Assembly: GCA_001599975.1 (NCBI GenBank)
Contig: BCIO01000003.1
Coordinates: 2,536,677-2,600,676, forward strand
Reading direction: 5' to 3'
DNA: 64,000 bases
Source: Cystobasidiopsis lactophilus
Taxonomy: Eukaryota; Basidiomycota; Agaricostilbomycetes; Agaricostilbales; Chionosphaeraceae
In this document: piece by piece, positions 5,923 to 41,009 of the stretch
Layout of the letters: each line of letters begins with the position of its first letter
How positions within the stretch are numbered: the stretch's first letter is position 1
Made by a program: the position numbers and the translations under genes
Notes under the pieces: model-generated
Told to the model about the DNA's origin: nothing
Seen by the model: only the letters and a program-made list of their open reading frames with translations
Databases searched by the model: none

Positions 5923-6935
5923 TATGGCTCTCGTGATCTTCATTTGCCTCTATTCGATTGGCTTTAGCGTGTGGATGTAGTGCGTTTCGCTTCCCCCTTG
6001 TTTTGCCAACCTCAGAAAGGCTCAAATGGCCTGCGCGCCTCGCACAGTCTGCAAGGACGCTACCTATGGTTCGGTGTCTACGAGCCCGCCCTCTTCGCCG
6101 TCGTCTCCGCCGTGGTGGCCTTCAATTGCGTGGTCAACTTCATTGGCTACTCCAGGGTAAGTCGTTTTGTTCTTGTTGTGCCACTTTGCCATAAAGCTCA
6201 TAGGATGCCGGAACAGAACTCGGGCTTGGTCTGCAGGGTTGAAACATACATCTGGCCCGTCCGTGAGTAGACAGATCCCTGCGTTCTTTGGACTGGCAGA
6301 TGGTGAACTTGGACCTCATCCAGTGCTCGTCGTCGGCGCCATCCGGGCCATCCTCATGCTGTACGACCTGGTGAGTGGTGGACCTCTTTACCCCAGCGTC
6401 CCTCGGCCGCAAGCTGACTGGGTCTACCACCTCAGAACAAGAATTCGCACATCATAGAGTGAGTTCTTACTCAACCTTACTCTAGTTTCGGCTGTTTCCA
6501 GGCTTGAAGCGCTGACGTACGCCACTCGCAGGTGGGAATGCGCCACTCATCAATATTTCAACTCGACCTTGTTCAACCGCACGGCCATCGAAGCCTTCTC
6601 GGGAGGCCCAGCCAACGACAGCCTCCAAGACTCGCCCTTCGACTGGTCTGACTTTGGCTTTGGCGCCTCCCAGAACAACTCGGTCATGCCGCGCGTCTGG
6701 TGCCGGACGTCCAACCACGGCCTCTTGATCGCCTTTGGTGCCGGCATCGCCATCGACTTGGCCCTCCAGCTCTACGCTTACTTCTTGGATTGGCGCTACG
6801 TCCGGCGCCTCTTCCACGAATACCAAAAGGTCCAGGCCGCCGCGGCCAAAGGTGAGGTCCCTCGTCATTCATCTTTGAGAGGCACGCGCTCAGTCGCTTT
6901 TTTGGGACGCCACAGCTGCTGGAGGTCCCGCTTGA
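5923..6935 (+). CDS. Small multi-pass membrane protein, unknown function
   Basis: Not a family I recognise. Five or six exons; splicing gives MALVIFICLYSIGFSVWILQ (first membrane segment), then GRYLWFGVYEPALFAVVSAV continuing into a second membrane segment, then WPVLLVVGAIRAILMLYDL, a hydrophilic loop with possible N-glycosylation sites (FNST, FNRT, ANDS), and a last membrane segment around FGAGIAIDLALQLYAYFLDW before a charged tail (RRLFHEYQKVQAAAAK). The final intron joins to a short exon ending at 6933-6935. Divergent from OLE1. An upstream ATG at 5757 joined through a mini-exon at 5833-5858 is an alternative start. Confidence 0.6.
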
Positions 6936-15842: not shown

Positions 15843-17021
15843 ATGGCGCCTGTCGGCCTCACCGACCTCCCGGAGGAGTTGCTTGTGAACGTCTTCACGC
15901 TCGTCCATCAAAGCTGCCAGCATTCAAAGGGATTCTACCCCAACCTCTTCCTCTGCTCCGCCCTCCGACAGGCCACTACGACCGCGCTCTACTCCTCAAT
16001 CGCCAATAACGATCTTCTGAACCCAAGTCCGTTTTACAACAAGCTCCTCCACAGGCTCGTCACGAGCCCTCATTTGCGCTCACTTGTCCGTGAAGTACGA
16101 ATGGTGCACTGGCGGGATCGGAAACGGATAAGGGAACTCGGCGGGCAAGCGGCGAGGGAGCAGCAAGCGGCGCTTGAAGATGTGGAGACCCATTCTCGAG
16201 TGGCGACTGTGCGCCAGCTATTCCTCCTCTGCCCCGGCATCACTCTCTTCCACATCTCGATGGATTTCGACGAGGACACCTTTCCAGAGCTGATCGGAGC
16301 GCTGACGCTGCTTCCTCAAAACATTGAAAGCCTGCTGATTGCCGCCTCCCATCAATCATATGAAGGCAACTCCGTACTCCCGGCCAACCTTTTCTACGAG
16401 CTGTCCTTGTCACGCCCACGTTTGAGGGATGTGCAGCTGGTAGGGATATTGATCATGGCCGATGTTCCTGTGCCCCATCCACAAGTCGCTGGACAACTTA
16501 ATCTGGTACTTCGACACTCGTATTTCAATGACGACGTGGATTCCGCCGCCCTCTTCTCGCGACTTCAGTCATTCACTATGAATGGGGAAGGCCTGCAGAA
16601 CAACGACATACCGACTGCGCATTCGCCGATCCCCAGGCTTTCAAAAGTTAGCCTGCCCGTCTCGTTTTCGCTAAACAGGGTTGAAACCCCGTTGCAAAAC
16701 TTCTTACTCAACCTTCCTAATCTTGAACGTTTCGACCTTCTCCCTCCTCACCCGGGAGACGATCCTCTGCTCAATCGCAATCTCATCTCCAGTTTGGCCA
16801 TGTACCCTCAGCGACTGCGTACCCTCTCCTGTTGCGCCAGTCATGGTTGCGAGGCCATACTCGCTGTCAACGAAGCCCTAGCTGAAGGCGGATTCCAAGC
16901 CCTGAAGTTTCTGGAACTGGATGTAACCGTCGACCCGGAGGCCGCGTTGACCTTGACTACTCAGCTCTGGAATGGTATTGGCAATCTGGAGAAGGCTGGG
17001 ATCAAAGTCACGGTGGTTTGA
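15843..17021 (+). CDS. F-box-like/LRR-like protein, family copy 2 (392 aa)
   Basis: Single-exon protein opening with MAPVGLTDLPEELLVNVFTL, the hydrophobic LP-E-L pattern of an F-box, followed by FYPNLFLCSALRQATTTALY, as expected for the helix after the box. The rest is built of loosely repeated leucine-rich stretches (FLLNLPNLERFDLL, LRDVQLVGILIM), so a leucine-rich-repeat-like substrate-binding region is likely. It ends NLEKAGIKVTVV. F-box proteins usually link substrates to SCF ubiquitin ligases through Skp1; that role is inferred. Copies 3 and 4 follow on the same strand at about 1.8-kb intervals, which indicates local duplication. Confidence 0.8.
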   Translation: MAPVGLTDLPEELLVNVFTLVHQSCQHSKGFYPNLFLCSALRQATTTALYSSIANNDLLNPSPFYNKLLHRLVTSPHLRSLVREVRMVHWRDRKRIRELGGQAAREQQAALEDVETHSRVATVRQLFLLCPGITLFHISMDFDEDTFPELIGALTLLPQNIESLLIAASHQSYEGNSVLPANLFYELSLSRPRLRDVQLVGILIMADVPVPHPQVAGQLNLVLRHSYFNDDVDSAALFSRLQSFTMNGEGLQNNDIPTAHSPIPRLSKVSLPVSFSLNRVETPLQNFLLNLPNLERFDLLPPHPGDDPLLNRNLISSLAMYPQRLRTLSCCASHGCEAILAVNEALAEGGFQALKFLELDVTVDPEAALTLTTQLWNGIGNLEKAGIKVTVV

Positions 17022-17639
17022 TGGAGGCAAAGAGACTTGGCGCCGGCGGGGAGGCAAGGCGTCTGGAGGGCGAGTGGCGGTCAGGGTTGGTTGGGCGAAC
17101 GGATTGGCCATTCCACCTCTCAATCGCGCTTCAAAACCCTCTTGGAGTGGATCTGATGACGCGTTCTATGTATGTCCGGTCTGCCACGCCTACGTGGGAT
17201 GCTGAAATAGTTTGCCACACAGCGATGCGCTGGATCAATTTGCTCGCCGTCTACGAAGAGGCACAAGTCCTTCGTCTCTGGCGCTACGTGATGGGCACGT
17301 AGACATGTGGGCCAGGGAAGGTGGTCGGAGCGAGCGGATGGGGCAACAGATGGCGGCGCATCGCATGCTTATCACTCGGGCAGCAGGTGGCCAGGCCTAT
17401 GGCCGAACGGCCGGAGCTCTCGCTTGGCTTGTACCTTCATCGCTTGATGATGACCAAATGAACCCACCAGTGCACTCATCGAGGCACTCGCAAAGTCGCG
17501 AGGCACGACTCTCCGAGTGAGCTCTTGACCGGCTTCCACCGAGTCCCTAGCCGCAAGTCGCCCACACGCAGCCAAGAATCCACCGTCCACTGGCATCTTT
17601 GCAGCCTCTGTAGCTTCAGCACCAGCCCCTGGTCGAGCC
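17022..17639. other. Intergenic between F-box-like copies 2 and 3
   Basis: No gene seen; several short open frames with no protein-like character. Confidence 0.45.
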
Positions 17640-18803
17640 ATGGCGCCCGTCAGCCTCACCGACCTTCCCTTCGAGCTTCAATTGCAAATCTTTGAAGATG
17701 TCAGCCGCAGTTGTGGCCATTCAAAGCAGTTCTACCCCAACCTCTTCCTGTGCTCCAAGCTTCGACAGGCCGCAACGCACGCTCTGTACACCTCTGTCGC
17801 TTGCGAGGAGCCCGGGGACACGTCCGTCTTTTATGATGGCTTGGTCAACAGACTTGTTTGGAGCCCGCACCTGCGCCCGCGCGTCCGGGCACTTCGCATG
17901 CACCACTGGCGCGACGAAATATTCGACAGAGTCCACACAGATGAAGCGAGAGAGTGGCAGGAGAAGGTGGACGAGGCACAGGACCGGAGTATATTGTCGG
18001 CCGTTCGTCAGTTCTTCTTCCTCTGCCCCGGCCTCACCTTCTTCGACCTTTGCATGTCTCTGGACGAGCCAGGTGGTGAAGCGTTGATGGGCGCGCTCAC
18101 TCTGCTTCCAATAAGCATTGAGACGGTCAAGATCGCTTCATGCACACCTGATCTGGCCGGACTTCCTGTCAACTTTTTCTACGACCTGTCCTTGACCCAC
18201 CCGCACTTGAAGGATGTCGAGGTCAACGGGTTCTTGATCGAGAATCCTCTTCCGGTCCAAGATCCACAGCCAGCTCGACAGTACCGTCTTGCGCTCCTCC
18301 ATTGCACATACCTCGACGGCACCGATCTCAGCACCCTCCTTCTAAGAGCTCATTCGTTTTGTTTCACCGTTGACGAGCTTTTTCCGGAGAGCCTGCCCGT
18401 CATAACAAGACCGATCACGTCTGTCTCGAAAATTACCTTCCACACCTTTCTCCGCCTGCCCGTGCAAGCCCAACGTCCACTGCGCTTACTCTTCCTCAAC
18501 CTTCCGAATCTCCGGCACTTCGGGCTGTTCTCCGATCCTTTCTATGGCGCTCATCTACATCCTAAGCTTGTGTCAAGTTTGGCCACCCATTCTCCCCAGC
18601 TAGATACCGTCTCTTTCAGCTTGTCGCTCGCCGACCCTGCGTTGAGCCATGTCCAGCAGGCCGTCTCTGGAGGCGAGCTGCGGTCCTTGAAGCGACTCTT
18701 CCTGGTTGGCGGGATCGAACAGCGCCCGCTGATCATGACCCAAGAGCTGGTGGATGGCATAGTAGCGCTAGGCAAGGCTGGTGTGACAGTTACGATGGTG
18801 TGA
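17640..18803 (+). CDS. F-box-like/LRR-like protein, family copy 3 (387 aa)
   Basis: Single exon. Opens MAPVSLTDLPFELQLQIFED and shares FYPNLFLCSKLRQAATHALY with copy 2, so the two are the closest pair. Leucine-rich segments such as LLFLNLPNLRHFGLF and LSLTHPHLKDVEVNGFLI recur at the same places as in copy 2, and it ends LGKAGVTVTMV. The first part is best conserved and the middle varies, as expected if the N-terminus binds a common partner (Skp1, inferred) and the remainder binds diverse targets. Start sits in GAGCCATGG, a good fungal context. Confidence 0.8.
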   Translation: MAPVSLTDLPFELQLQIFEDVSRSCGHSKQFYPNLFLCSKLRQAATHALYTSVACEEPGDTSVFYDGLVNRLVWSPHLRPRVRALRMHHWRDEIFDRVHTDEAREWQEKVDEAQDRSILSAVRQFFFLCPGLTFFDLCMSLDEPGGEALMGALTLLPISIETVKIASCTPDLAGLPVNFFYDLSLTHPHLKDVEVNGFLIENPLPVQDPQPARQYRLALLHCTYLDGTDLSTLLLRAHSFCFTVDELFPESLPVITRPITSVSKITFHTFLRLPVQAQRPLRLLFLNLPNLRHFGLFSDPFYGAHLHPKLVSSLATHSPQLDTVSFSLSLADPALSHVQQAVSGGELRSLKRLFLVGGIEQRPLIMTQELVDGIVALGKAGVTVTMV

Positions 18804-19466
18804 TGGCGGGCAAGTGGTTTTGGCAGGGCCAGTAAGGGGAGGACGGTGTTAGAAGTCAGCACGGGGCCAACAGCCGGACCGCATAGCTCATGCTCCCTTC
18901 AACCTCGGTCAAAACGCATTCGCTTGTCTGCATGATCACATCCATGTGAGTGCGAGTGGCTCTATCCGCTACAGGAGACACGAAGCTGAAGGTGATTATC
19001 CACCTACCAGGACTATGCTGCCCTGATGTCGTGCTGGCGCCGCTTTTGCGCTTGGTCTTGTGGCACTGGTTGATGCGAAGGAACAGATGCAGCCTAGGTG
19101 GAGGCGGAAAGAGAAACATGCGCGGGGCAAGATGCAAAGCGCTGGCCTAGAGAAGCGGGCAAGTCGGCGACGGCCGTACCGCAGGAAATCGGCACACTCG
19201 CCCCCCTGATAGCTCCATGAGAGGCAAGCGTTGGCAAGCGGTCTGGAGGGTCATGGAATGTCTGGCCGGCATTTTCGTAACTGCCATCAATGTCACTCGG
19301 ATATGCTGCCGCGCTCAAGGGACTTGTTTTGCGGAATTGCTTCTGAGCGTTGCTGTCTGAGCTCCGTGAATCATTTACCTAGACCACTTGTTGCGCCTGG
19401 CTGCACTGACCCCTTTTGCCACCAACTTTGGCCTCGAAGTACTCTTCGAGTTTTGCACCGTCGACC
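18804..19466. other. Intergenic between F-box-like copies 3 and 4
   Basis: No gene seen. Ends in the good start context CGACCATGG of copy 4. Confidence 0.45.
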
Positions 19467-20597
19467 ATGGCGGCCTCCTTGATCAATCTACCCTCAGAGA
19501 TTCAGGCCAAGATCTTTCGCATCGTCAGCATGGAAACGTGGAAAACAAGCGCCTTCCTCCCCAACCTATTCCTTTGCAGAGCTCTACGGGATGCCACCCA
19601 ACTTGCTCTCTATTCAAGCATCGTTTCATCCCCCTGGCGACAGCCCTACACCTTCTTTACCGGCTTGATCGAGAGATTGGACAAGCATCCTCGCCTCGCC
19701 GCCCATATTCATCTGCTCAGTCTGGGCTCCGGTCACTTTTCTTTCGACGAAGGGACAGTTCCTTTCTGTCTCCTTGCATCTCGCTATTTTTTCAGACACT
19801 GCTCTGCTTTAACTTCGTTTCGATTTGCGGCAAATCTGACGGAAGAGGCGACAGCAACAGCGCTCTTGGACGTCCTACAATGTCTTCCTATCACCGTCCA
19901 ATCTCTTGGCGTCAGTCACATTGGGTCCCTGCCCGCCCCTTCGATTTCGCTCGACTTTTTTATAAATTTGGCGGCAACCCATTCTGGTCTGAGGGACATG
20001 TGCCTGTCGAAGCTGTGCCTCATCGAAGAAGATGGTTCCCAAAAAGTCGGTAGAGCTGGCCTTTTTCTTCTGCTCATCGAATGCCACTATCCGGGAGAAG
20101 ATTACGCTGGCATTTTCTGCAATACTCAACGATTGTGGCTAACAATCGCCGACCGCACGGCGATCCCGACCAGCTCTGTAAGATCTGGGCGCTTGCGGGA
20201 TCTACACGTTGTTGGGAATAAGGACCAATGGGAACTTGATGGAGAGGACCTACAAAGGCTCGAAAGTCTCACGCATGGCTTGCCTGGGCTTGTCTCTATC
20301 GACATCAGGGCGTACGAGCTCGGAGACATAGAAGAAGCTCGAGCTCTTTTTCATTACCTGGCCACCTACCACCCCTGCCTCGAAAGACTTCGCATGCGGT
20401 ACAGCTTCATCACTTGCGTCATTGCCTGGATATCTGAAGCCATCTCGCAAAATAAATTGTCGTCTCTCAACTGCGTGTCGTTCGAAAGGGCGGCCTCCCA
20501 CAAGAAAGCGGTGGATCTGGAAGAGACGTTCTTGGACGCAATCGCTTCGCTTGCACGTGCGGGAATCAAAATCGAGATTGAAGACCCAAAGCAATAG
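19467..20597 (+). CDS. F-box-like/LRR-like protein, family copy 4 (376 aa)
   Basis: Single exon, the most divergent intact member. Opens MAASLINLPSEIQAKIFRIV and keeps FLPNLFLCRALRDATQLALY. The middle has leucine-rich elements (LLDVLQCLPITVQSLGV, THSGLRDMCLSKLCLIE) and a C-terminus AGIKIEIEDPKQ in place of the VTVV/VTMV ending. I chose the ATG at 19467 rather than an in-frame ATG at 19416 because the sibling proteins begin at this point and its context CGACCATGG is better. Confidence 0.78.
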   Translation: MAASLINLPSEIQAKIFRIVSMETWKTSAFLPNLFLCRALRDATQLALYSSIVSSPWRQPYTFFTGLIERLDKHPRLAAHIHLLSLGSGHFSFDEGTVPFCLLASRYFFRHCSALTSFRFAANLTEEATATALLDVLQCLPITVQSLGVSHIGSLPAPSISLDFFINLAATHSGLRDMCLSKLCLIEEDGSQKVGRAGLFLLLIECHYPGEDYAGIFCNTQRLWLTIADRTAIPTSSVRSGRLRDLHVVGNKDQWELDGEDLQRLESLTHGLPGLVSIDIRAYELGDIEEARALFHYLATYHPCLERLRMRYSFITCVIAWISEAISQNKLSSLNCVSFERAASHKKAVDLEETFLDAIASLARAGIKIEIEDPKQ

Positions 20598-24082: not shown

Positions 24083-25322
24083 ATGCCTCTCCAGGTGGTG
24101 TTCCAAGACATTGCGGCCGACGAGGTAGTCACCCTCCAGGGAATGAAGCCCAGCACCGTCGACACAGAATACTTCATAGTGCCTTCCAAGGACTGTGAAC
24201 GACTCAAACTCCCCGAGTACGAGGACATCCTTCAGCACTGCTATGGTATGTATCACCGTTTCGCGATTTCATTGAACGCAGGGCACTGATGCAAGAGGGA
24301 AGGCCGATTTGACGCCGACCTGCCCGTAAAAGGGTTGTTCACGGCCTCCATGTCGACGTGCTGTGCGATTATCATACATTGCGAAGCAACCGGCCGATTC
24401 GCTTTTGCCCATACCCCTCCAAACTTTGCCCTCGAACCCTTTTTCGACCAGCTGCAGTACGTCACCTCCGGCAGGCAAGGCGGCCGCCGCAAGGTGTCTT
24501 GTCTCATCATCAAGGGTCTGGCTTACCAAGACATGCACTCCAAGCCCAAGAACGCTTACGGTTCCGCCGAGGCCTACTCGCACTTCGAGTACCTGGCCCA
24601 GCAGCTCGGCGTGGTCTCCGAGTACAAGCTGGCCGTGGACTTTGAAGTGCAGCACTTCGTCGAATGTGCCTCTCTGGGCGCGGTGTCGCTGGACAAGGAT
24701 GGCACGGTCAGCATATTTCGCGTCGGCTGCCCTTTGGCCAATATCCAGCCCGACGCCACCGGCTTCCTCTTTGATGCTCACGCCGGCCACAGATACACCG
24801 ACCATCGCATCCTTTACCCCCGTTATGTCGCCCTCGCTGGTTTTGCTATGAACGTGGAGGCCAAGCAATATCCGACTTTCCTCACTTGGGACAATACGTG
24901 CTACTGCTCAGCGCCACCTGTGCCCACGCCACTCCGCGAGTATATGCGTGCACTAAAGCTGGGACTGTTAGATGCAGAGATCATCGAGCTCATGCGCGCC
25001 CATGCCGACAGCGTCGGCCGCTGTCTCGTCAACGCGGAGGCCTTCGTCGACGAGCGCTTTCACTATGTCCTCAAGTTCCTCAAAATGACCTGTGACAAGG
25101 ACCACAAGGTCTGTGATCGAAGGCATTGCGTCTCTCAGGGCTTGCTTTTCTGCTCGGCTTGCTCTGGTGGGTTGCACTTCTCATCGCTTCTCTACATGTG
25201 TTGTGTTGAGGACTAGCCCAGGCGCTTCTTACTGCGGACCCGTCCATCAAGCAGAAGACTGGGGAGCCCATCGTGAGTTCTGCATGGCGCACAGGGATCG
25301 CTTGGTGGAGGAAGACGAATAG
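24083..25322 (+). CDS. MYND zinc-finger protein, tandem copy 1
   Basis: Three exons. Exon 1 is MPLQVVFQDIAADEVVTLQG to LQHCYG; exon 2 carries an unrecognised globular region with CEATGRFAFAHTPPNFALEP and VSLDKDGTVSIFRV; the last intron (GTGGGT...CAG, ending about 25218) splits the zinc finger. The C-terminus reads CDRRHCVSQGLLFCSAC then GASYCGPVHQAEDWGAHREF and C, the C-C-C-C-YC-HQ-W-H-C spacing of a MYND finger. MYND fingers bind proline-rich partner peptides; here the finger is at the very end and no SET or other catalytic domain is visible. Copies 2 and 3 follow on the same strand. Confidence 0.8.
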
Positions 25323-25857
25323 GTTGTGGCGCGTCAGGCCAGAAAAAGAGGCAATAGATGCTGTCGCTTAGGGCTTGGTCTACTTGTAGTGTGCCACAGT
25401 CCGTGCCCAAGCTTTTTGCAAGTCTTAGTCCACCCACTTTTTGCCACCGGTCCTGCTCAAAATCAATCTGACGGCCCCTGTCGTCGCGTCTTTCCCTCCA
25501 GCCATTCAGCGGAGGTAATGCCTTTTCTGTGTCCCCTTCGCGTCACTTTATGGCTGTGCTTGCGATGCCTTGCGGAGAGCCTTTCCCTCCCCGATTGGGA
25601 TTTGGAGCGCGACTCGGCTCGAAATGGGAGCGCCCGAAGAAGTCAGGCCTCTGTCGTTCGATTGGCCTGATGGGCCCCCTTGTTGACCTCATTCAATGCT
25701 TTCACATGTGATCTTACAATGCCAGTGACAGAGGAGCTGCAAATCTGCTTCGTGCCGTGACAGGCTTCCATCCGAAGAAAGCCCTCCTCCTCGCTCTCTG
25801 TCTTGTCTGTCAGCAGCCTCTTTCTGGACCCTGCACACTCGCAATAACGCCAGCTAT
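25323..25857. other. Intergenic between MYND copies 1 and 2
   Basis: No gene seen. Confidence 0.45.
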
Positions 25858-27131
25858 ATGTCTTTGAGAGTGGAGACCAGGACGCTTGCGAAGGAGGAGA
25901 TCCTCGACGTTGGAGCTGTCGGCGCCATTTCCCGAGCAAAGCATGTTTACGTCAAAGATGATCAACCTTTCGCCAATCGCAAGGAGATCTTCAAGTTCTG
26001 CTATGGCGAGCTCTCAGATGAAGACGCAAAGTACCCGGCTGACGAGGGGAACAGGCCGCATGGACCCACTTCGTTCAGACTGCCCTGGCTTCTTCATCAC
26101 CAAACTCCCGTATTACGCCTTGTACGACGTTCGCTTTCTGATTTAGCAAGAAGCATGCTCAAGATGAAAGCTTTCAGCGTCATCCGTTGCGAACAAACTG
26201 GTCGTTCAACCCTTTCGAACCTCGCCTACCCTTGCCCGAGCGAATACTTCTACGAGCAGCTGAACTACGTCATTGGAAGTGACTGCGACCGCCAAACCAT
26301 CGTCCAGATTCTGGCCATCAAAGGCTCGGCGCATGTTTCTAGCGAGCTGGTGAAAGCAGGCACTTTGAATGGCGCGGATCGTAGATTATTCCAAGATCTT
26401 CACGCGAGCATCGCCTTCATCAAACAAACGCAACCCGATTTTGACATCCAGCTGCAAGTCCACGCCCAGCCTCTTCCTCTTGGAGCCTTGCTGTTGGACG
26501 CCGACGGATTGATCACCATTTTGCGCCTCCTCGATCCGGTTCCCACTCCCTTACAGCCTCCTACTGCCGCCACGCTGCTGGGTGTTACAGAAGAGTTCAA
26601 AGCACACGCCAAATACTACACCCTGGCCGCTCAATTTCTGCTGACTGGGACGTTCACCGCATGCGCCCTGCGCCGCCTGCCGCCCTTGATGCTTCAATTC
26701 GACAACAGCACGCTTCGACATCCCCCTCAGATCCCTTCTAGCTGCAGAGAGCTCATGCGGGCAGTGAAGCTGGGCCGGTCCGAAACCGAGATCTTGGAGC
26801 TCATCCGAGCTGTTCCAGAGGCCAAGGAGGCTTTGACGATGTTTCCAACGCAGCAAGCAGACAAGATGCACATTGCTCTTTATGGAATTTTGCTGCTGGC
26901 GTGCAACATCAAGAGTCGAGTTTGTGACTGCCAAGGGTGCCTCAACTCTGGGCGCCAATTTTGCTCGGGCTGCTCGGGTATGTCTTCCTCTCGCTTATCT
27001 TCCTTTAGTGGAGCTTATGGTCTCTCACAGGAGCATCGTACTGTGGGAAGGAGTGTCAAGCCAAGGACTGGGCGCTGGGAGGGCACCGCGAGTTTTGCCA
27101 GGCTCATCTCGTCAAGAGGGCTGCCACCTGA
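25858..27131 (+). CDS. MYND zinc-finger protein, tandem copy 2
   Basis: Starts MSLRVETRTLAKEEILDVGA. The first intron of the sibling genes lies after the CYG triad; here the frame is open through the corresponding position (about 26005-26160), so that intron may be lost or retained. Shared positions with copies 1 and 3 include FSVIRCEQTGRSTLSNLAYP, LLLDADGLITILRL and SSCRELMRAVKLGRSETEIL. The C-terminal MYND finger, split by an intron at about 26976-27030, reads CDCQGCLNSGRQFCSGCSG then ASYCGKECQAKDWALGGHRE and FC. Two extra residues sit between the Trp and the His compared with copies 1 and 3. Function unknown. Confidence 0.78.
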
Positions 27132-27480
27132 AGCGCGCCATCGGTTCATTTCTTGTACCTTAGTACTGCAAAACAACGGGATATCCTCTGTACCACTACT
27201 TAGACCGGCTTTCCTGATACCGCCGCCACTTTTGTCAATTTGAGTTCAAGTTGAAACCGCACTTTGTTCCCTCGCTTGCGGCCTCGACGAAGACTCTGCT
27301 CCTGATTTGTCTGTCTTAGGCTGAATTCTGCTGGATCAAGGAGGCAGCAAGGCACTCAACGTCCTGGCCTCGCGCCCTCGCGCAGCCCTCCTTCTCTCGT
27401 GTCTCTGATTGCTGCCGCCCCTTTCCGAGATTGTGTTCTTCCACAGCGCTACACTTTCTTGCGTATCAACGACGAGAGTT
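27132..27480. other. Intergenic between MYND copies 2 and 3
   Basis: No gene seen. Confidence 0.45.
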
Positions 27481-28704
27481 ATGCCTTTGCGGATCGTATA
27501 CAAGACTCTCGCCAAAGGAGACGTCTACGTGCCTCGCCCAACCGGGCCCAGGCCAGATCTCGCCGGCAGCTTTGAGCGCATTCCGTTGCATGTTGTCGCC
27601 AATGACAACAGCATTTTTTCCGGATATTGTGAAATTCTGAACGCGGGATGCGGTATGTAGTTTTGGCCAAGATCTTACAATCTCGCTCACTCCTCTTGAC
27701 TAGCCCACCTTGACCCTTCCGTTGACCGAAAGGGCGCTCTCGCCAGCAATATCAGCGCCGCTAACGCTGTCATAATGAGCTGCGAGGAAACTGGCCGCCT
27801 TACCGTCTGCGTGGCCCCTCCCGGAGCAGAGAAAGAAGCGTTTCTGGAGCAACTCGCCTTCGTGGCCGACGGCGACCGCCCACCCGGCTCCTCGCATCGA
27901 ACTGTCGAGGCCCTGATATTCAAGGGAGCATTGCACAGCGACCCCACGTGGCAGTCTATCTTTGAAGACGCCTCCAAGAGGATCGAGACCGTCATCCGCA
28001 AAGGAGCAGAGGCGATCGGCCCAGAGACTCTGGCCATTCAGATTAAGGTCGCCGATCACCCTCCCCCTTTAGCTGTCGTCTTCTTGGACGCGGACGGCAC
28101 CATCACCATCCCTCAACTGGCCGGGGATGCGCTGCCCGAGGTCGACATTGCCACCGACCTTCCTGTTCTCTTCAATCTCAACGCTCCGCGCGACGATACA
28201 TTCGCCTTTGCGGCTCGTCACGCCTTGCTCAACATTTATGCAACGTCGGTGGAGGCCCGCGGACACCCGGTGCCTCTCCTTTTTGACCACGGCGTTTATC
28301 AGCTCCCACCCCCCATCCCCGACGGCCTTCGTGAACTCATGCGCGCGACCAGGCTCAAGCACATCATTCCAGAAGACCTCAAGATAGCCAGGCAAACTCT
28401 TCGTGCCAACTTTGGCGAGAACAGCGAGGACAACATCGAGGCGCGACTGCAAGTGATCCTGCAGCAAGTGGTTCCCAATTGCGATTCCAACACGAAGACC
28501 AGCGACGTCCGTGGCTGCATTTGTCGAGGCTCTCTGTTCTGCCAGGGCTGCTTAGGTTCGATTGTTCATTGAAGCACCGTTCCCGCCACCTGATTCGAAC
28601 TTCCTACAGGAGCTTCATACTGCCATTCCAAGCATCAAAAGGAGGACTGGGCCATTCACAAATCTTTTTGCAGGTCCCACCGAACCAAGAAAGGGCAGGC
28701 TTGA
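27481..28704 (+). CDS. MYND zinc-finger protein, tandem copy 3
   Basis: Three exons with the same intron positions as copy 1. Exon 1 MPLRIVYKTLAKGDVYVPRP to LNAGCG; exon 2 opens AHLDPSVDRKGALASN and holds MSCEETGRLTVCVAPPG, VVFLDADGTITIPQL and DGLRELMRATRLKHIIPEDL, all shared with its siblings; exon 3 completes the finger CICRGSLFCQGCLG / ASYCHSKHQKEDWAIHKSFC. The repeated FLDADGTI/SLDKDGTV element marks a conserved strand-turn-strand in the unknown domain. The stop is at 28702-28704. Confidence 0.8.
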
Positions 28705-33809: not shown

Positions 33810-34639
33810 ATGCTCGCCCGGCGCTCTCGCTGCTTCTCGTCCCTCCCTCCTCGTCGAGCTCCAAGCACCGACCTCGAACCAGTCGCAGCTGCAGGTGAGC
33901 GCCGCGCGCACACAAACCCGCGCTCCAAAAATTTATAAAATGTGTCGCAGCCTACCCATTCAGCAGCAACGTCCTCCCTTTACCCTCTATCCCTCGCTCA
34001 CCAGTTCAGAAGGCTTTGTTACAACGGATCAACGAGCACCTCCTCCTCACCTCTCCCAACGTCGCCCACTTGTTCTCCCGACGCAACCCCGGCCGAGTCC
34101 TCATCGGCTCCTTACTCTCTGTCTCCACTTACAACCCAACCCGAACTGCACTAACCACCTTCTCAGGGCAATTAATAGCCGTCAAACGTTCGGGCCCAGA
34201 TACGTCGTTCACACTTCGAGCGGTGGTGGCTAGGACAGGCGTGGAAGTCCGGTTTGCAGCGGGGTCCAATTTGATCCATGAGGTCAAAGTGCTCGCGAAG
34301 GCCAATAGAGCTAAACCGGCAGATGCGAGAGAGAGGGAAGGAAGGAGGCCGGATCGGTTGAGGCGCTTCAAGTTTGTTCTCCCTCTCCCTCTTCTCTTCT
34401 CTCTCTTTATGCTGATTGAGGTTGGGGGGTAATGCAGGAGGGCTAAGTTGTATTATCTTCGACACAAACCAGAACGCCTGGCCTCGCCCGCTGGAGCGAT
34501 GAAGTTCCAAGAGGCGAAAGAACGCAGGTTGCTATTGGCCGCGAAGGAGGAGGCGGAGGTGGGGGAGTTGGAGGGACCTAAGACTGTGGTGGTCGTAAAG
34601 GGGAAGGGGAAGAAGGGAGGGAAGAAGGGGAAGAAATGA
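33810..34639 (+). CDS. IMG1: Mitochondrial large-subunit ribosomal protein bL19m
   Basis: Component of the mitochondrial 54S ribosomal subunit. Exon 1 gives the import leader MLARRSRCFSSLPPRRAP; introns at about 33895-33949 and 34372-34438. The ribosomal L19 core follows: FSRRNPGRVLIGSLLSVS, FSGQLIAVKRSGPDTSFTLR, VVARTGVEVRFAAGSNLI and, across the last intron, KRAKLYYLRHKPERL. The lysine-rich end (GKGKKGGKKGKK) is an extension. Gene symbol follows yeast IMG1 (bL19m). Confidence 0.88.
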
Positions 34640-34762
34640 TGGGTTTGTGATTGGGGAGGAGGGAGGAGAGAGGAGAGAGGAGGTGCGGCTGCCCTTTTTG
34701 ACTTTTTAGCTCATGTAGAGTAGGAGCTGAGCTGCGAGATGACCGCACAGGTGTATGAGCGC

Positions 34763-35577
34763 ATGAAACTGGCGAGATGATCAAAGGGCAATGCGTGCGT
34801 CGAGGCGATTGTGGTGTGGCGGGGGTGGTGGTGAGCTCGGCTTTTTTCCCAATTTGCCACTTCGCGGTGGCTGAGGATGGGTTGAGCTCACAGTGAGGAG
34901 TCATTAGAAGAGCGTAAGGCCTCCTCTTTACCGCAGCTCCCTCTCGTCTCGTCGAGCTGATGTGCTTGAGAGCCTTTCAGTGTCGACGAGGACATGTAAG
35001 GCCCGGTCCCACCACTAGCACTCATAGTGTGCTAAACAGGTGGGATCGTCTTACAGCACACACGAGCGAGCAGCACGCGGATTGGACCATGCTCGAATGC
35101 GACGAGGTGGCGAGCGGGACACGGGTGGGTTTCCCTTTCACCTCAAGTCCGCCGGGGACTGAGCATTGAGCCTACTGCCCACAGCCTGTTATGGAAAGGT
35201 TCGTGCCTAGCCACTTCTAGCCTCCTCTTCGGAAGCTGACGTCTTCGTCGCACCAACAGCCTCGGCTCAGGAAGCAAATGTTCACGGCAAAGAGGACGGA
35301 TGCGGTAGGCTTGGAGTCTCACAGCTATCAGCAACCGTACCTGATCCTCTTTTCGTAATCCGCCTACAGCCTCATTCTCATCGGCTCTCGCTTGGAAGAT
35401 CTCGGACTCTGGGATAGGTGGGACAATTTGCTTACCTTCAGCTCGTTTCAACAGGCTAAGAAGCAGGCGTTTCACAGCCGGCAATAGAGCTACTAAATGC
35501 TTAACTAAATTCACCGAGCGCAAGAGGGATCACCACCGTGCAAGTGTCAACAAGCGAAAGAGGCAGAGCAGAGGTAC
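34763..35577 (+). pseudogene. Repeat unit 1 of the mini-exon array, decayed
   Basis: Corresponds to the ATG-led exon of unit 2 (ATGAAACTGGCGAGATGA here has an early stop). Later exons are still protein-like: HTSEQHADWTMLECDEVASG, then PVMES, a short basic exon, and LILIGSRLEDLGLWD followed by SFQQAKKQAFHSRQ and stop. The exon after SFQQAKKQ is shorter than in unit 2 and out of step with it. Confidence 0.4.
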
Positions 35578-35649
35578 TGTTCCCTCCCATACTTTAGCTC
35601 CCACATTTTAGAGCTAACACCTTCGTGAGCGGTACAGAAGTCCGGCATC

Positions 35650-36459
35650 ATGAAATGGGCGAGGCTTGATTTGGCAGAGCAATGCGCTGTCGAGGCGACT
35701 TGGTGGCTTGAGGTGGTGTGGTGAGCTCGGCTTTTTCCCAATTTGCCACTTCGCGGTGGCTGAGCATGGCTTTGAAGTCACAGTGAGGAGTCATTAGAAG
35801 AGCGTGAGGCCTTCTCTCTACCGCAGCTCTTTCTCTCAAGAGAGCTCAAATTGTGGTGGGCCTTGCAGAGTCGGCGAGGACAGGTAAGGCCCGGTCCCAC
35901 CCCTAGCACTCATCGTGTGCTAAATCCGGATAGATCGATCTTACAGCACACACGAGCGAGTACCACGCGGATTGGACCATGCTCAAATGCGACGAGGTGG
36001 CGGGGCTGGATGCTGGTGGGTTTCCTTTCACCTCAAGTCCGCCGGGGACTGAGCGTTGAGAGTAACTGCCCACAGTTCTTATGAAAAGGTTAGTGCCAAT
36101 CCACTTCTAGCTTCCTCGTCGGAAGCTAAGATCTTTTCTTTGCCGCACGAACAGCTCGGCAAAGGTCACTAATGTGGTAGGCTTGGAATCTCACATCTAT
36201 CAGAACATGTACCTGATTCCATCTTTAAACTCCACCTACAGCCTCATTTCAATCGGCTCTCGCTTGGAAGCTTTCGGACTTTGGGATCGGTGAGACACTT
36301 TGCCTATCTTCAGCTCGTTCCAACAAGCTAAGAGGCAGGCAATGGTTTCACAGGCGGCAATAGAGCGACTACATCCTTTCGCCAAGTTCACCGAGCGCAA
36401 GAGGGATCACCACCACTACCACCCAAGTGTTAGGCGAAAGAGGCAGAGCAGAGGTACTG
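35650..36459 (+). CDS. Repeat unit 2 of the mini-exon array; frame continues into unit 3
   Basis: Starts MKWARLDLAEQCAVEATWWL. Splicing at GTGAGCTCGG and the following short exon gives CEESLEEPLSLKRAQIVVGL, then HTSEYHADWTMLKCDEVAGL. The last exon, read as SFQQAKRQAMVSQAAIERLH and FTERKRDHHHYHPSVRRKRQ, does not stop at the unit end but runs on into the MKWRK exon of unit 3 (36305-36601 open). The joint around 36161-36245 does not keep a clean frame in my reading. Gene model uncertain; protein unknown. Confidence 0.35.
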
Positions 36460-36530
36460 TTCCCTCCCCGTACTTTAGCTCACACATTTTAGAGCTCAAT
36501 GCCTGGTGCTCGGTACAGACGTCCGGCATC

Positions 36531-37357
36531 ATGAAATGGAGGAAGATTGACTTGGCAGAGCAATGCGTGTCGAGGCGACTTGGTGGCGTGAGGTGGTGGT
36601 GGTGAGCTCGGCTTTCCCAATTTGCCCCTTCACGGTGGCTTAGGATGGTTTGTCGACTCACAGCGAGGAGTCCTTTAAAGAGCGTGAGGCTCTTCTTCGC
36701 ACCTCAGCTCCCTCTCGTCTCGTCGAGCTCACCTGTTTGGAAGCCTTTCAGTGTCGACGAGGACAGGTAAGGCCCCTATCTTCCCCTTAGCACTCATCGT
36801 GTGCTAAACCGAATTGATCGATCTTACAGCACACACGAGCGAGCACCACGCGAGATTGGACCATATTCGAATGCGAGGCGATGGCGGGGCTGGATGCTGG
36901 TGGTTTCCTTTCACCTCGAGTCCGCCGGGGACTGAGCATTGAGCCTACTGCCCACAGCTTCTTATGGAAACGTGCGTGCCAATCCTCCCTAGCTACCGTC
37001 TCAGGAAGCTGATAAGTTTCTGGTTGCACGAACAGGCTCGGCTCAGGAAGCAAATGCTCAAAGCAAATGGGACTAATGTGGTAGGCTTGGAATCTCACAG
37101 TCATCAGAACACGTACCTGATACGCTCTTTGTGATCCGCCTACAGCTTCTTCTTCATCGGCTCTCGCTTTGAGGACTTTGGACTTTGGGATCGATGAGAC
37201 ACTTTGCCTACCTTCAGCTCATTTCAACAAGCTAATACATCCGCATTGGCTTCACAGCCGACAATAGAGCTGTTACATCCTCCACCGGAACCACCGAGCG
37301 CAAGAGGGTTCACCACCGCTACGCAAGTGTTAGGCGAAAGATGCGGCGAAGAGGTGC
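36531..37357 (+). pseudogene. Repeat unit 3 of the mini-exon array, partly decayed
   Basis: Opens MKWRKIDLAEQCVSRRLGGV, joined to CEESFKEPPSRLVELTCLEA and on to DWTIFECEAMAGLDA. Two length changes in the adjacent exons (two bases and one base longer than in unit 2 by my count) add up to three. The exon LFFIGSRFEDFGLWD-like is present near 37146-37190, but its GT donor reads GATGAG instead of GGTGAG, so normal splicing there looks lost. Confidence 0.35.
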
Positions 37358-37472
37358 GCTGGGCCCTTTACCTCATAGCTCATGTAGTGTAGAGCTGAGA
37401 CTGAAAAGGGCGGTACAGGCCGTGTGGTGGAGTGAAACTGGCGAGCGACTTAGCAGAGCAATGCGTGTTCTG

Positions 37473-38220
37473 ATGATGAAGAGCGGTGGTGTGGCGAAGT
37501 GGTGAGCTCGGCTTTTACAACTGCCACTTCACGGTAGCTATATGGTTTGAGCGAATTCACAGTAAAGAGTCATCAGAAGAGCGTGAGGCCTTCTCCCTCT
37601 CCCAGCTCTTACTCTTGACAGGGCTCAGCTTGTCGGAGAACCTTGCAGACTTGACGAGGACAGGTAAGGCCCGGTCCCACCCCTAGCACTTATAGTGTGC
37701 TAATGCCGATAGTTGATCTTACAGCACACACGAACAAGAACCACTCGATCTAAAGCATGCTCTCAGTGGAGAGGAGGTGGCGAGCGGGACACGGGTGGGT
37801 TCTTTTCACCCCAAGTCCGCCGGGGACTCAGTATTGATTGTCCTGCCCACAGCTTGTTATGGAAAAGGTTCGTGCCAATCCACTTCTAGCCTCCTCGTCG
37901 GAAGCTTAGTCTGTTTCGGTGCGAACAGCTCGGCCCATGGAAGTCCTCAACTATCAAGCCAGATCGGACCAGGTAGGCTCGAATTCCGCCACCGTTAGAG
38001 CATGCCTCTGAACAGCTGCTTTCGGTCTACAGTCTCCTCTTTGTCGGCTCTCGTGTCTTGCTCAGAAAATTTGGGGTCGGTGAGTGGTCTTGCCATTGCT
38101 CAAGCTCATCTGGAGCTTACTGGTCTCCCTGAAACTCACAGCAGACAGCTCCAGAGAGTGCGCTCGCTCAAGCCTTTCTTGGTCGCTGTACGGCTGCAAA
38201 GACTTAGGGCCCTTCAATGA
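37473..38220 (+). CDS. Repeat unit 4 of the mini-exon array; openest gene model (~132 aa)
   Basis: Unknown protein. With the conserved donor and acceptor sites the frame is open from ATG 37473 to TGA 38218-38220: MMKSGGVAKCKESSEEPLTL, DRAQLVGEPCRLDEDSTHEQ, HALSGEEVASGTRLVMEK, LGPWKSSTIKPDRT, LLFVGSRVLLRKFGV and a basic end FLVAVRLQRLRALQ. Seven exons, introns about 24-70 bases. Relative to unit 2 one exon is one base longer and the next effectively two longer, so the frame is restored. Whether this is its own gene or the last module of a longer one is open. Confidence 0.4.
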
Positions 38221-38433
38221 ATCTTGAGAACCGGCTTCGTTGCAGCCATTGGGACTGCTCTCTCTGAGTATGAGATGCATCTGAGAGCTACGTTGTACCC
38301 CCGCATTCCATCATGGCCACGAAAATGTAAGCCAAACATGGTGGCGTTGCCATCATAACAAAAGGCTGCACAACCTTTTTGAGCCGAGGTGGGAGCCGCC
38401 AGCTGAGAGCCCCTTCTTTGCTACGACGACCAC

Positions 38434-39040
38434 ATGCGCGACGATACCTTGGAGAAAACCTTACGCTTGCTCAAATCTTTGGGAGCGCCGGAAGACATTT
38501 GGCCGGCCTCGCCCCTGCCTCCTGGAAGGCCTCCAGCACAGCCGAGGTGGAATGCGATTCTCGAGGTGAGACTTGGCTCCTCCGGCTTTGTGTGCTTCTC
38601 TGGCGTGGATTCAGGCTGTGGCTTTGCTTTCAGGGCTTGGACGAGGTGCATCGGGCAATACAGACGGACTTCGTGCTGATATCGAAGTCACGGGCCGAGG
38701 ACAGTCTTATCATCGCGCGGGCGGCTTCCGGTGGCTTGAATAGCAGGTGAGGTCCACTTAATCAGCTGCTGTCATTGTAATGGACCTGACAGAGAGCGTG
38801 CAGCGATAATCCGGCGCTCTGGCGTTGGATCAGGTCCAAAGCAGCAGAGCTCGCCGGTGCGCTGCTCTCCTTCTTCCCTCCACGGGCACCTGCTCCTCAC
38901 TGAGGCATTGCATGGCTGTCATTACAGAACTCATGTTGACTGGAGCTCCGTTCCCTGTAGGCCGCTTCAGCCCTTCTCACATTTCCCAGTCGCTCGCTAA
39001 CCACATTGCATCCGCAGACACAACAGAAGCTCAAGGATGA
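38434..39040 (+). CDS. Hypothetical small helical protein (~130 aa)
   Basis: Not recognised. MRDDTLEKTLRLLKSLGAPE opens a first exon ending NAILE; introns at about 38569-38634, 38748-38794 and 38837-38928 give GLDEVHRAIQTDFVLISKSR, AEDSLIIARAASGGLNS, RERAAIIRRSGVGS and ELMLTGAPFPVGRFSPSHIS, ending ASADTTEAQG. All four joints use GT...AG and keep frame. Short and charged, it could be a subunit of a larger complex, but I have no family evidence. Confidence 0.5.
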
Positions 39041-39427
39041 CTAGCGGCGCTGGAAGACCTTGCTCGACTACAAGCGCAGCTTTCACACCGATAGGAAGCT
39101 CGCTGCCCGCCAAAGCCAAAAGAGTCCTGGCGGTTTGTTTTCGGGCAGTTGGGTTTTCGTGGGTTCCTTGAGCGACAAAGCCGCTGTGATAGGGCCCCTC
39201 TTTCAAGGGCTCTTCGCTGATTCTGCTTCCGCCCAGCCTCATGCAGAAGAGGCTATAGGCAGCCAAGTTGTAAAACGTCCGTCATCTTGTGCAAGCGCAC
39301 ATTTTCATACATTGCAAATGGGACTATGAAGCCGAGGAACATCCTGCCCAGTCTCCTGCTGATACTCCCGTCTTTCTTTATCTCACTGCACACCGTTGAG
39401 TTGAAATGGGACCATAAAAGGGGCGCT
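39041..39427. other. Intergenic, convergent 3' region
   Basis: No gene seen between the two converging genes. Confidence 0.45.
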
Positions 39428-40213
39428 TCAAGGACAAGCGGGAAACTGAACGTGTGCTGCCCCACTACCTGGCGTGTTGGTCCTAACAGGCGCGCAGCCA
39501 CCATATTGCCAATTGCGATCGCCTCCGTCAGTGTTGTGGTAAAAATCACCTGGCCAATCAACGGACAATTAGACCAAAGATGAAGCCAGCCCAAGCAGAG
39601 AGATGAGCATCCTTACCAGTAACGAAGACAAAGATGTCGTAGTCTTTGCTACTCAAATCCAAGATCCCAAGGTCGTTGACAGTGACGCGCTGAGGCAGAA
39701 ATGAGCCACCGCTTGCAAAAATAAAACAACAAACAACTCACTTTCGTGAAATATTGCGAAGCATCCAAGGATGAGACGGTCAAGATGTTCCGGTTGTCAT
39801 TATCGTGAGCGCTGACGACAACCTGTGGGGAAGGATCAGTCATGTGTTGGCTCTTCGACAAACAACTTGCGTTGAATCTGGGATAATTCTGTCGAAGCAT
39901 GGCCACGATGCCCTCGGTGAAGCCAGCCTCCCTCTTTGAAAATGTAGATCATTAGAAAGGCACATTCCCTGTGAAGATCATGAGTGGCTCACATCGGCAT
40001 CGTCGGAATTGAGTAGGTTGTCGTCCAGATAATTGTCAATGAGGCCGTCGCTAGTTCGGCCCTTCGCTCTAAGAAGCGCAGAAGAATGGCAGCAGCGACA
40101 ACGAACAGAGTGGCTGGATTGCCAAGAGATGGAGTGTCTCTGGCAAGCAGAGGCAAAGCAAGCAAAGAGCGGCATATCGAGAACCAAACGAGAGCCGATC
40201 CAAAGAACTTCAT
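39428..40213 (-). CDS. Small secreted protein with DGG..NW motif (~167 aa)
   Basis: Leftward. The signal peptide is clear: MKFFGSALVWFSICRSLLAL then PLLARDTPSLG. Spliced exons give TSDGLIDNYLDDNLLNSDDA, REAGFTEGIVAMLRQNYPRF, VVVSAHDNDNRNILTVSSLD, RVTVNDLGILDLSSKDYDIF and a final exon with DFYHNTDGGDRNWQYGGCAP ending HVQFPACP. The DGG-x2-NW-x-YGG element resembles the GDGGWxNWAF end of small secreted fungal proteins; that comparison is from memory. One intron (39823-39870) appears to be GC-AG with donor GCAAGT. Function unknown; extracellular by the leader. Confidence 0.6.
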
Positions 40214-41009
40214 GGCTGGTGATGGTGTTGGGGCAAGAACGAGAAGAGGCAGTACAAGTGCACTTTCTATCGACGTAAGAAAGTCCCGCCTCGTTGGTAG
40301 AAGTCTTGCTGCAAGAGGCTCCGAAGCGGTGCAAACGCCAGCGCGTCACTCGGCTTGCCTGCTGGCGGACGCCGTCGGCCTTGCTCAAGTCATGGACACT
40401 TGATTCACAAAGAGCAAGTCGATGAGCCAGGGAAGCGATCGATTGGTCACAGCCCATTCGGGTTGTTCAAAGAGCATTGCATCCGGCCAAGTGTCCACAC
40501 CAGGGTTTCTTTTGAGTTGAACCGCCTCCATGTGTCCATGTCTCACATGTGCTGCGCTTCCTAGAGACAAGAGGCGACAAGTCGAACAGCGAATTGTGGT
40601 CGAGGAATCACGGAAGACTTCAAGAGGAGTTGGGAGGGGCCATTCTGCAACTCGCACCCTCTCGAACTTGGCTAGCAACCGACGTCTTTATTCACAACAA
40701 AGACTTTTAACGACGAAGCAGACCAGGCAATCAGGCGAGCTTGGCGTTAGGCTGGCGGCAGCGGTTCAACTTCAAAAGTTGCGGTCGCCACCGGCGCCAG
40801 CGCCGGATGATTGCTTCTCAAAATCCCAAATTGATCTCCTCAAGGCATGACGCGGATACACGACCTTAGGCGGCAATCGGCACCTCTCAAGGCTTACAAC
40901 CAGCAAATGTACACTCAAACAGTGTCAGCGGGGGAAGAAGCGTTTCGCGAGCTTTTCGAACGGCTATGAGACGGATCATAGATGTCCATGCACATGCGGG
41001 GATAAGCCT
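40214..41009. other. Intergenic, ~0.8 kb
   Basis: Promoter side of the secreted-protein gene and 3' side of the dehydrogenase. A rightward open frame at about 40530-40850 lacks protein-like character. Nothing else seen. Confidence 0.4.

Follow-up and report, generated by a model that had tools for sequence, protein, structure and literature searches.

Why does a fungal locus repeat the same dense chain of short introns four times over, and does it encode anything? The question arises from a 64-kb stretch of the Cystobasidiopsis lactophilus genome (C3:2536677-2600676, contig BCIO01000003.1; hereafter the window), whose plus strand carries four head-to-tail copies of one exon-intron chain, with anchors at positions 34831, 35721, 36602 and 37502 and anchor-to-anchor spacings of 890, 881 and 900 nucleotides (nt). 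A sequence-only reading of this DNA had recognized the tandem array and took it for an amplified, possibly modular gene of an undescribed protein. Examined against the whole genome (22.1 Mb, 8 contigs), the locus appears in a different light: we consider it probable, though far from certain, that the array is a fourfold duplicated, mostly non-coding unit whose introns belong to a genome-wide class with base-paired ends, and that the fold of these introns is selected to aid the spliceosome. The earlier reading thus saw a true tandem array and valued it on the wrong ground, the paired intron ends having been overlooked.

Intron ends within the array

When one array unit was searched against the genome, only the four places in the array were among the best-scoring candidates, which bears out the proposed four units of ~890 bases on one strand. 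Intron borders, set from conserved motifs, delimit 32 introns, eight per unit, of 58-68 nt with intervening exons of 13-100 nt (Table 1). GT..AG borders are kept in 31 of them, the exception being u3i7, which starts with AT, so that the splice sites are indeed conserved between units. The homology begins before the first full anchor, with intron u1i0 from 34683. Between units, identity amounts to 0.61-0.84 in exons and 0.64-0.79 in introns; the exons are no better conserved. Together with the lost GT of u3i7, the shortening of exon 5 to 22 nt in unit 2 (44-45 nt in the other units) supports the view, put forward earlier, that an intron-dense unit was amplified in tandem and has partly decayed. 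Tandem Repeats Finder, run with a period limit of 500, listed no repeat inside the array that would make it a short-period satellite, and Rfam at gathering scores matched no known structured RNA in the window.

The ends of these introns fit one another. The first bases of the intron, which form its 5′ splice site, can pair with those directly before the final AG, which is left as a 2-nt 3′ overhang (register G1:C-3, U2:A-4, +3:-5, +4:-6 and onward). Minimum free energy (MFE) folds join the first base to position -3, i.e. end to end, in all array introns except u3i5 and u3i7. Allowing one mismatch, at least six end pairs were found in 27 of the 32 introns, compared with a mean of 10.4 and a maximum of 18 in 2000 trials with swapped 3′ arms; in the comparison set of ordinary predicted introns of 57-72 nt, 65 of 417 reached this number. 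A strict end stem of at least five pairs is present in 72% of array introns and in 27% once arms are swapped. The signal is confined to register 0 (z 6.1, against 1.1 and -0.9 at registers -1 and +1), and positions along the chain differ in arm sequence yet match, as in GTAGGC..GCCTAC, GTACTG..CGGTAC or, with two wobble pairs, GTTCGTGC..GTGCGAAC. Further inside, a second hairpin frequently terminates at a CTNA that resembles a branch site. All array introns but one (31 of 32) have this putative branch site within 21-30 nt of the 3′ end, most frequently at 24-29 nt. Nowhere else in our analysis did end-paired introns cluster locally as densely as in the array.

Hairpins that end at the splice sites of short introns and carry a 2-nt AG overhang are also typical of mirtrons, which have long near-continuous stems and yield microRNAs. 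The array introns share the former traits (the overhang is seen in 30 of 32 folds), and it is conceivable that the excised hairpins, with this overhang at their 3′ end, enter the Dicer and Argonaute pathway as mirtrons or another source of small RNA. In line with this, u1i1 forms a near-continuous hairpin (MFE -32.5) and comes closest to a mirtron, and the genome contains about four Piwi-domain loci (G000:C4:140606-141525, C4:543248-543964, C2:622712-623650 and C2:716120-717147), judging from which part of the RNA interference machinery is likely present. We nevertheless regard such a role as highly improbable. End pairs range from 4 to 13 and number at most seven in 25 of the 32 introns, where a large internal loop usually follows instead of a long near-continuous stem; end stems of at most seven pairs are short for Dicer, and a mirtron class of the size described below would be unusual.

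Matched arms across the genome

The strongest evidence for end pairing comes from pattern counts over both strands of the whole genome. Matched arms occur at 632 places for GTTCGT..CGAACAG (backwards control 41) and at 753 for GTGCGT..CGCACAG (backwards control 9), whereas the swapped combinations GTTCGT..CGCACAG and GTGCGT..CGAACAG gave 42 and 88 (backwards controls 25 and 27), corresponding to an odds ratio of 129 (Fisher P ~7e-266). Similarly, there are 281 matches to GTGAGT..CTCACAG versus 66 and 95 to the swaps GTGAGT..CGCACAG and GTGCGT..CTCACAG (odds ratio 34, Fisher), which shows covariation of +4 with -6, and 173 to GTGGGT..CCCACAG (backwards control 18). Arm swaps covered GTTCGT against GTGCGT and GTGCGT against GTGAGT. 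With the 3′ arm moved by a single base (CGAACNAG), 37 matches remained versus 64 in the backwards control. Chance palindromes were rejected as the source of these counts, since the backwards pattern, itself an inverted repeat of identical bases, is found 41 rather than 632 times, and biased composition as the cause of end pairing is excluded by the swapped-arm counts together with the register control. The four matched arm types total 1,839 places. Pattern counts, including those of swapped arms, hold both-strand twins (two pairs among the GTTCGT matches listed); with these and a background of swapped or backwards size deducted, ~1,500 or more introns with matched ends remain. We infer from their form that the matched places are introns, few of which were checked in genes.

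A simple gene finder, trained on open reading frames (ORFs) and splice motifs with pairing unused, was run on 314 kb of the genome. It over-predicts introns, with 980 outside the array in the final round, and its low-scoring minus-strand model across the array (36704-40457) was disregarded. Among these 980 predicted introns, a strict end stem of at least six pairs was found in 49, compared with 21.5 after arm swapping (maximum 38), and one of at least seven in 28, compared with 8.3 (maximum 15). Split by length, the 326 predicted introns of 59-70 nt show an excess of end complementarity over swapped controls with a z of 7.0 at register 0, whereas five other registers range from -0.3 to 1.0; z values of 0.2, -0.5 and 1.7 were obtained for introns of 45-52, 53-58 and 71-90 nt, respectively. 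A structural scan of 264 kb returned 27 places outside the array, while the two Markov controls had 11 and 14, a result too noisy to stand alone. MAFFT alignment and random member subsets misaligned the class stems. A rule by which pairing rescues weak donors was considered and dropped, the set of predicted GTTCG introns supporting it weakly.

The anatomy of the class was taken from 60 of the 632 GTTCGT-type introns, namely the first 62 among the matches listed, all on contig C1, minus two antisense twins. They measure 63.7 ± 4.4 nt. Their interiors share a pairwise identity of 0.566, against 0.540 when shuffled, their strongest inner stem beats shuffles (z 4.0), and the mean fold z-score is -1.8. 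Relative to other predicted introns, the CTNA peak is shifted from 16-21 to 24-28 nt from the 3′ end and the pyrimidine content at positions 9-20 raised from 58% to 75-79%. Class introns cluster within genes: 14 adjacent pairs were counted versus 2.5 expected (maximum 8 in 2000 trials) and, when only introns of 57-72 nt are considered, 45 same-gene class pairs versus 20.8 (maximum 42 in 2000 trials).

This clustering, and the fact that a few arm types are common, would suit introner-like elements, i.e. a spread mobile intron family whose paired ends are terminal inverted repeats that serve, or once served, mobility and not splicing. Introner families are defined by sequence similarity, while the likeness within the class is structural and not in sequence. 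Further resemblance lies in the many introns of one design per genome and, in some families, the inverted repeats described in parts of the introner literature (PMC4457414, PMC9860276), which names Pezizomycotina as the introner-containing fungal group (PMC9860276), and in the end-to-end inverted repeats or hairpins that, according to passages of PMC8469720, characterize introner-like elements of fungi as well as the sister introns of Hypoxylaceae. We judge this explanation unlikely: interiors are nearly unrelated while ends stay matched genome-wide, and because pure inverted-repeat relics would lose their arms as fast as their interiors, the matched ends count against relics of introners. Because the interiors differ from one another nearly as much as shuffled sequences do, a recent burst of transposition is improbable too, and DNA of the array unit matches the array alone.

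Members of the class also reside in conserved genes. An SNX4-like gene (L011:5807-7763) contains three end-paired introns (6379-6444, 6500-6564 and 6653-6713). In the spliced protein, the PX domain spans the first two junctions, and the alignment to SNX7 (3iq2) crosses every one of the three, interrupted by one gap of one residue. Among the best 120 of its 598 protein matches, the named ones are basidiomycetes as far as recognized, led by entries such as Cystobasidiomycetes sp., Cystobasidium minutum and Mixia osmundae (50-56% identity), in agreement with a basidiomycete host, probably of the Pucciniomycotina. In an XAP5-like gene (L026:8122-8370, minus strand), introns are parted by exons of 24 and 17 nt inside the conserved domain, which was matched in one stretch (E 5.4e-48) holding two class introns around the 24-nt exon. 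Short exons between class introns are thus found outside the array as well. In silico removal of class introns restores conserved SNX4-like and XAP5-like proteins, which, along with the GT..AG borders and the branch-like CTNA in the array, is as expected of U2-type introns. A search for U1 gave no match, while its controls likewise gave none.

Two further places on contig C1 caught our attention. Five GTGGGT..CCCACAG introns lie within 3.6 kb at G000:C1:135649-139208, where two similar pairs ~2.64 kb apart suggest that here, too, a gene containing end-paired introns was duplicated in tandem. At G000:C1:3462771-3463843, three end-paired introns with visibly similar interiors are found in 1.1 kb, possibly in a modular or duplicated gene.

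Coding potential and surroundings of the array

Spliced in silico, the array chain comprises 1,583 nt, and its longest open frame, of 156 codons, is at chance: a frame of this length turned up in 135 out of 1000 Markov shuffles, and in 21 out of 60 controls in which all introns had been slid by 1-30 nt. Per-exon coding log-odds are near zero at best. An 89-amino-acid frame in unit 1, broken in units 2-4 as judged by exon lengths, contains no Pfam domain and has no homologue among ~5.8 billion proteins in a search that was limited to shared short exact words and took in the unit 1 frame, not the frames of units 2-4. On these grounds (longest frame at chance, unit 1 frame without homologue, weak coding signal) the single modular protein gene considered by the sequence-only reading is not supported. 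That reading had counted net exon-length changes of three in units 3 and 4 relative to unit 2; the summed exons of units 2 and 3 (370 and 391 nt) do differ by a multiple of three, 21 nt, and those of units 1 and 2 (386 and 370 nt) by 16 nt. It had also let a frame cross from unit 2 into unit 3 through an open stretch at 36305-36601. Read from 36306, this stretch indeed contains 98 codons without a stop, unlike the two other frames, but it is unspliced DNA and covers part of the intron at 36290-36353 and all of that at 36454-36518.

A young protein-coding gene family, whose paired ends would simply follow from a bias in splice-site composition, would draw on three observations. Changes in exon 6 lean to third positions in two of three comparisons (6/11 between units 1 and 3, 6/10 between units 2 and 3, 2/7 between units 1 and 2), units 1-3 share a TAG close to the beginning of exon 7, and background pairing between GTGAG and CTCAC exists. 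The exon 6 changes and the shared TAG, slight hints of coding, would be compatible with an ancestral small gene. To a present-day family we give next to no credence, as composition is excluded by the swapped arms and the register control, and the ORF tests and the homologue search with the unit 1 frame speak against it. Most likely, the array itself is a decayed or non-coding tandem transcription unit. A mere non-coding satellite, the alternative named earlier, does not fit because the array introns belong to a genome-wide class that is present in conserved genes.

Upstream on the same strand, an L19-like ribosomal protein gene (33811-34639, plus strand; PF01245, E 9.9e-11), probably a mitochondrial one, has its stop 44 nt before u1i0. 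From this proximity, the array may be a 3′ extension of that gene or a separate RNA.

Table 1. Units and introns of the tandem array (window coordinates)
Feature	Position	Strand	Type	Length (nt)	End pairs	Remarks
Unit 1	34683..35573	+				introns u1i0-u1i7 with exons
u1i0	34683..34750	+	end-paired	68	8	
u1i1	34831..34893	+	end-paired	63	13	MFE -32.5
u1i2	34914..34980	+	end-paired	67	6	
u1i3	34996..35056	+	end-paired	61	7	
u1i4	35125..35184	+	end-paired	60	6	
u1i5	35199..35259	+	end-paired	61	7	
u1i6	35305..35369	+	end-paired	65	6	
u1i7	35418..35477	+	end-paired	60	7	
Unit 2	35574..36453	+				introns u1i8-u2i7 with exons
u1i8	35574..35637	+	end-paired	64	10	
u2i1	35721..35783	+	intron	63	4	
u2i2	35804..35868	+	end-paired	65	11	
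u2i3	35884..35946	+	end-paired	63	7	
u2i4	36016..36075	+	end-paired	60	6	
u2i5	36089..36154	+	end-paired	66	7	
u2i6	36177..36241	+	intron	65	5	
u2i7	36290..36353	+	end-paired	64	7	
Unit 3	36454..37353	+				introns u2i8-u3i7 with exons; GT lost in u3i7
u2i8	36454..36518	+	end-paired	65	6	
u3i1	36602..36663	+	end-paired	62	6	
u3i2	36684..36751	+	end-paired	68	7	
u3i3	36767..36829	+	end-paired	63	7	
u3i4	36900..36957	+	intron	58	5	
u3i5	36972..37035	+		64	7	one mismatch +3/-5; MFE fold in other register at 5′ end
u3i6	37081..37145	+	end-paired	65	6	
u3i7	37194..37257	+	decayed AT..AG	64	4	MFE fold not end to end
Unit 4	37354..38225	+				introns u3i8-u4i7 with exons; most diverged, approximate 3′ end
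u3i8	37354..37418	+	intron	65	4	
u4i1	37502..37562	+	end-paired	61	8	without CTNA at 21-30
u4i2	37583..37648	+	end-paired	66	6	
u4i3	37664..37724	+	end-paired	61	7	
u4i4	37795..37852	+	end-paired	58	6	
u4i5	37868..37928	+	end-paired	61	10	
u4i6	37973..38032	+	end-paired	60	10	
u4i7	38080..38141	+	end-paired	62	6	

Elsewhere on the plus strand of the window, three neighbouring open frames at 24335-28572 share common motifs and a cysteine-rich end and apparently form a trio of tandem paralogues. Three further neighbouring frames, at 15843-20597, resemble one another and presumably encode proteins of F-box or leucine-rich-repeat type; a Pfam search with the first of them gave no match, the other two not having been searched.

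Paired ends as a proposed splicing aid

Taken together, the class is best described as structure-defined, probably spliceosomal introns that are clustered in the array. The analysis shows the anatomy (introns of ~58-70 nt whose first 5-8 nt complement the bases upstream of the final AG, the 5′ arm being followed by a pyrimidine tract, often an inner hairpin, and a CTNA mostly 22-29 nt from the 3′ end), the exact register, the genome-wide covariation of the ends and their occurrence in conserved genes. In the mechanism we propose, the intron RNA would fold back and bring its two splice sites together, and this fold, under selection, would help the ordinary spliceosome to define or pair them, the end pairing being opened upon binding of U1 and U6. 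The array itself would be transcribed and spliced. As the ends covary in one register while the interiors are near random, the most economical interpretation is that pairing is under selection, and the data suggest that RNA folding helps define the cut sites of class introns.

Several observations weigh against this interpretation. Both the splicing and the folding of class introns are predicted. The strong stem is short: at positions 7-14, outside the arms used as search patterns, complementarity reaches modest values (z 0-2.6). Nor does a CTNA at 21-30 nt set the class apart, since 203 of the 417 ordinary predicted introns of 57-72 nt have one there, as do 44 of the 60 sampled GTTCGT introns. 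No tie of class introns to short exons was seen. In 176 non-array introns of all lengths with long flanking frames, the excess of introns with at least five pairs is weak (11.9%, which equals the permutation maximum, versus 7.0%), and 10 of 52 predicted GTTCG introns, a set that includes false introns, pair at five or more of six positions versus 2.4 at random. Within the array, exchanging an intron's own arm for that of the corresponding intron in another unit leaves the pairing unchanged (6.9 versus 6.9), and comparisons between units yielded seven two-sided and 27 one-sided changes, with 159 unchanged, while 95 comparisons involved a broken pair. Since same-position arms are interchangeable and two-sided changes few, the array alone is no proof of compensatory evolution; it is the genome-wide table that carries the case.

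Paired intron ends have precedents outside the fungi. Nonconventional introns of euglenids conserve pairing of +4, +5 and +6 with -6, -7 and -8 at variable borders, according to the portions of PMC4770533 considered here, and intron ends lacking GT..AG are base-paired in two diplonemids, as stated in parts of PMC12621601. In these introns RNA structure joins the ends, as it is predicted to do in the class described here, and the euglenid register is identical to ours (PMC4770533, PMC12621601). One might suppose that the class introns, too, leave the transcript independently of the spliceosome, through a mechanism that recognizes their paired ends. This seems to us very unlikely, as a GT..AG border is found in 31 of 32 array introns (in the genome patterns it is there by construction), in contrast to the variable euglenid borders of the same source passages (PMC4770533), and as a CTNA lies near the 3′ end in equally many. 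The class further differs in its fungal host, the narrow range of its CTNA and a pairing that extends from G1 onward, whereas the euglenid and diplonemid introns combine variable borders with a removal mechanism that the cited passages leave unexplained (PMC4770533, PMC12621601). That the class is a convergent counterpart of these nonconventional introns, with normal GT..AG borders, and could thereby reveal how one intron type converts into the other, is an idea we put forward tentatively, being inclined to doubt it.

Among fungi, the closest parallel is offered by Hypoxylaceae sister introns and stwintrons, which passages of PMC8469720 present as canonical fungal introns with self-inverted repeats that may fold end to end, and which have proliferated; flanking tandem duplications are not reported in those passages. 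There, tens of sequence-similar (stw)introns with repeats of 45-55 nt are described (PMC8469720), whereas ~1,500 or more introns make up the basidiomycete class, in which interiors are unrelated, the arms measure ~6-10 bp and the register leaves an overhang of exactly 2 nt. In Saccharomyces cerevisiae, donor-acceptor dependencies have been reported, paired intron ends not being mentioned in the passages at hand (PMC12513839). Among the matches listed from open-access PubMed Central titles and abstract openings, no such class in a basidiomycete was found, subscription literature being outside this scope.

Gene finders that are blind to pairing may miss or misplace class introns and the very short exons that sometimes separate them. 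If our preferred reading, i.e. a fold selected to aid the spliceosome, is true, whole-intron RNA structure, beyond short splice-site motifs, would specify a large intron set in a fungal genome. The class could then offer a reporter-testable system for the question raised by euglenids, namely how introns with paired ends are recognized and removed.

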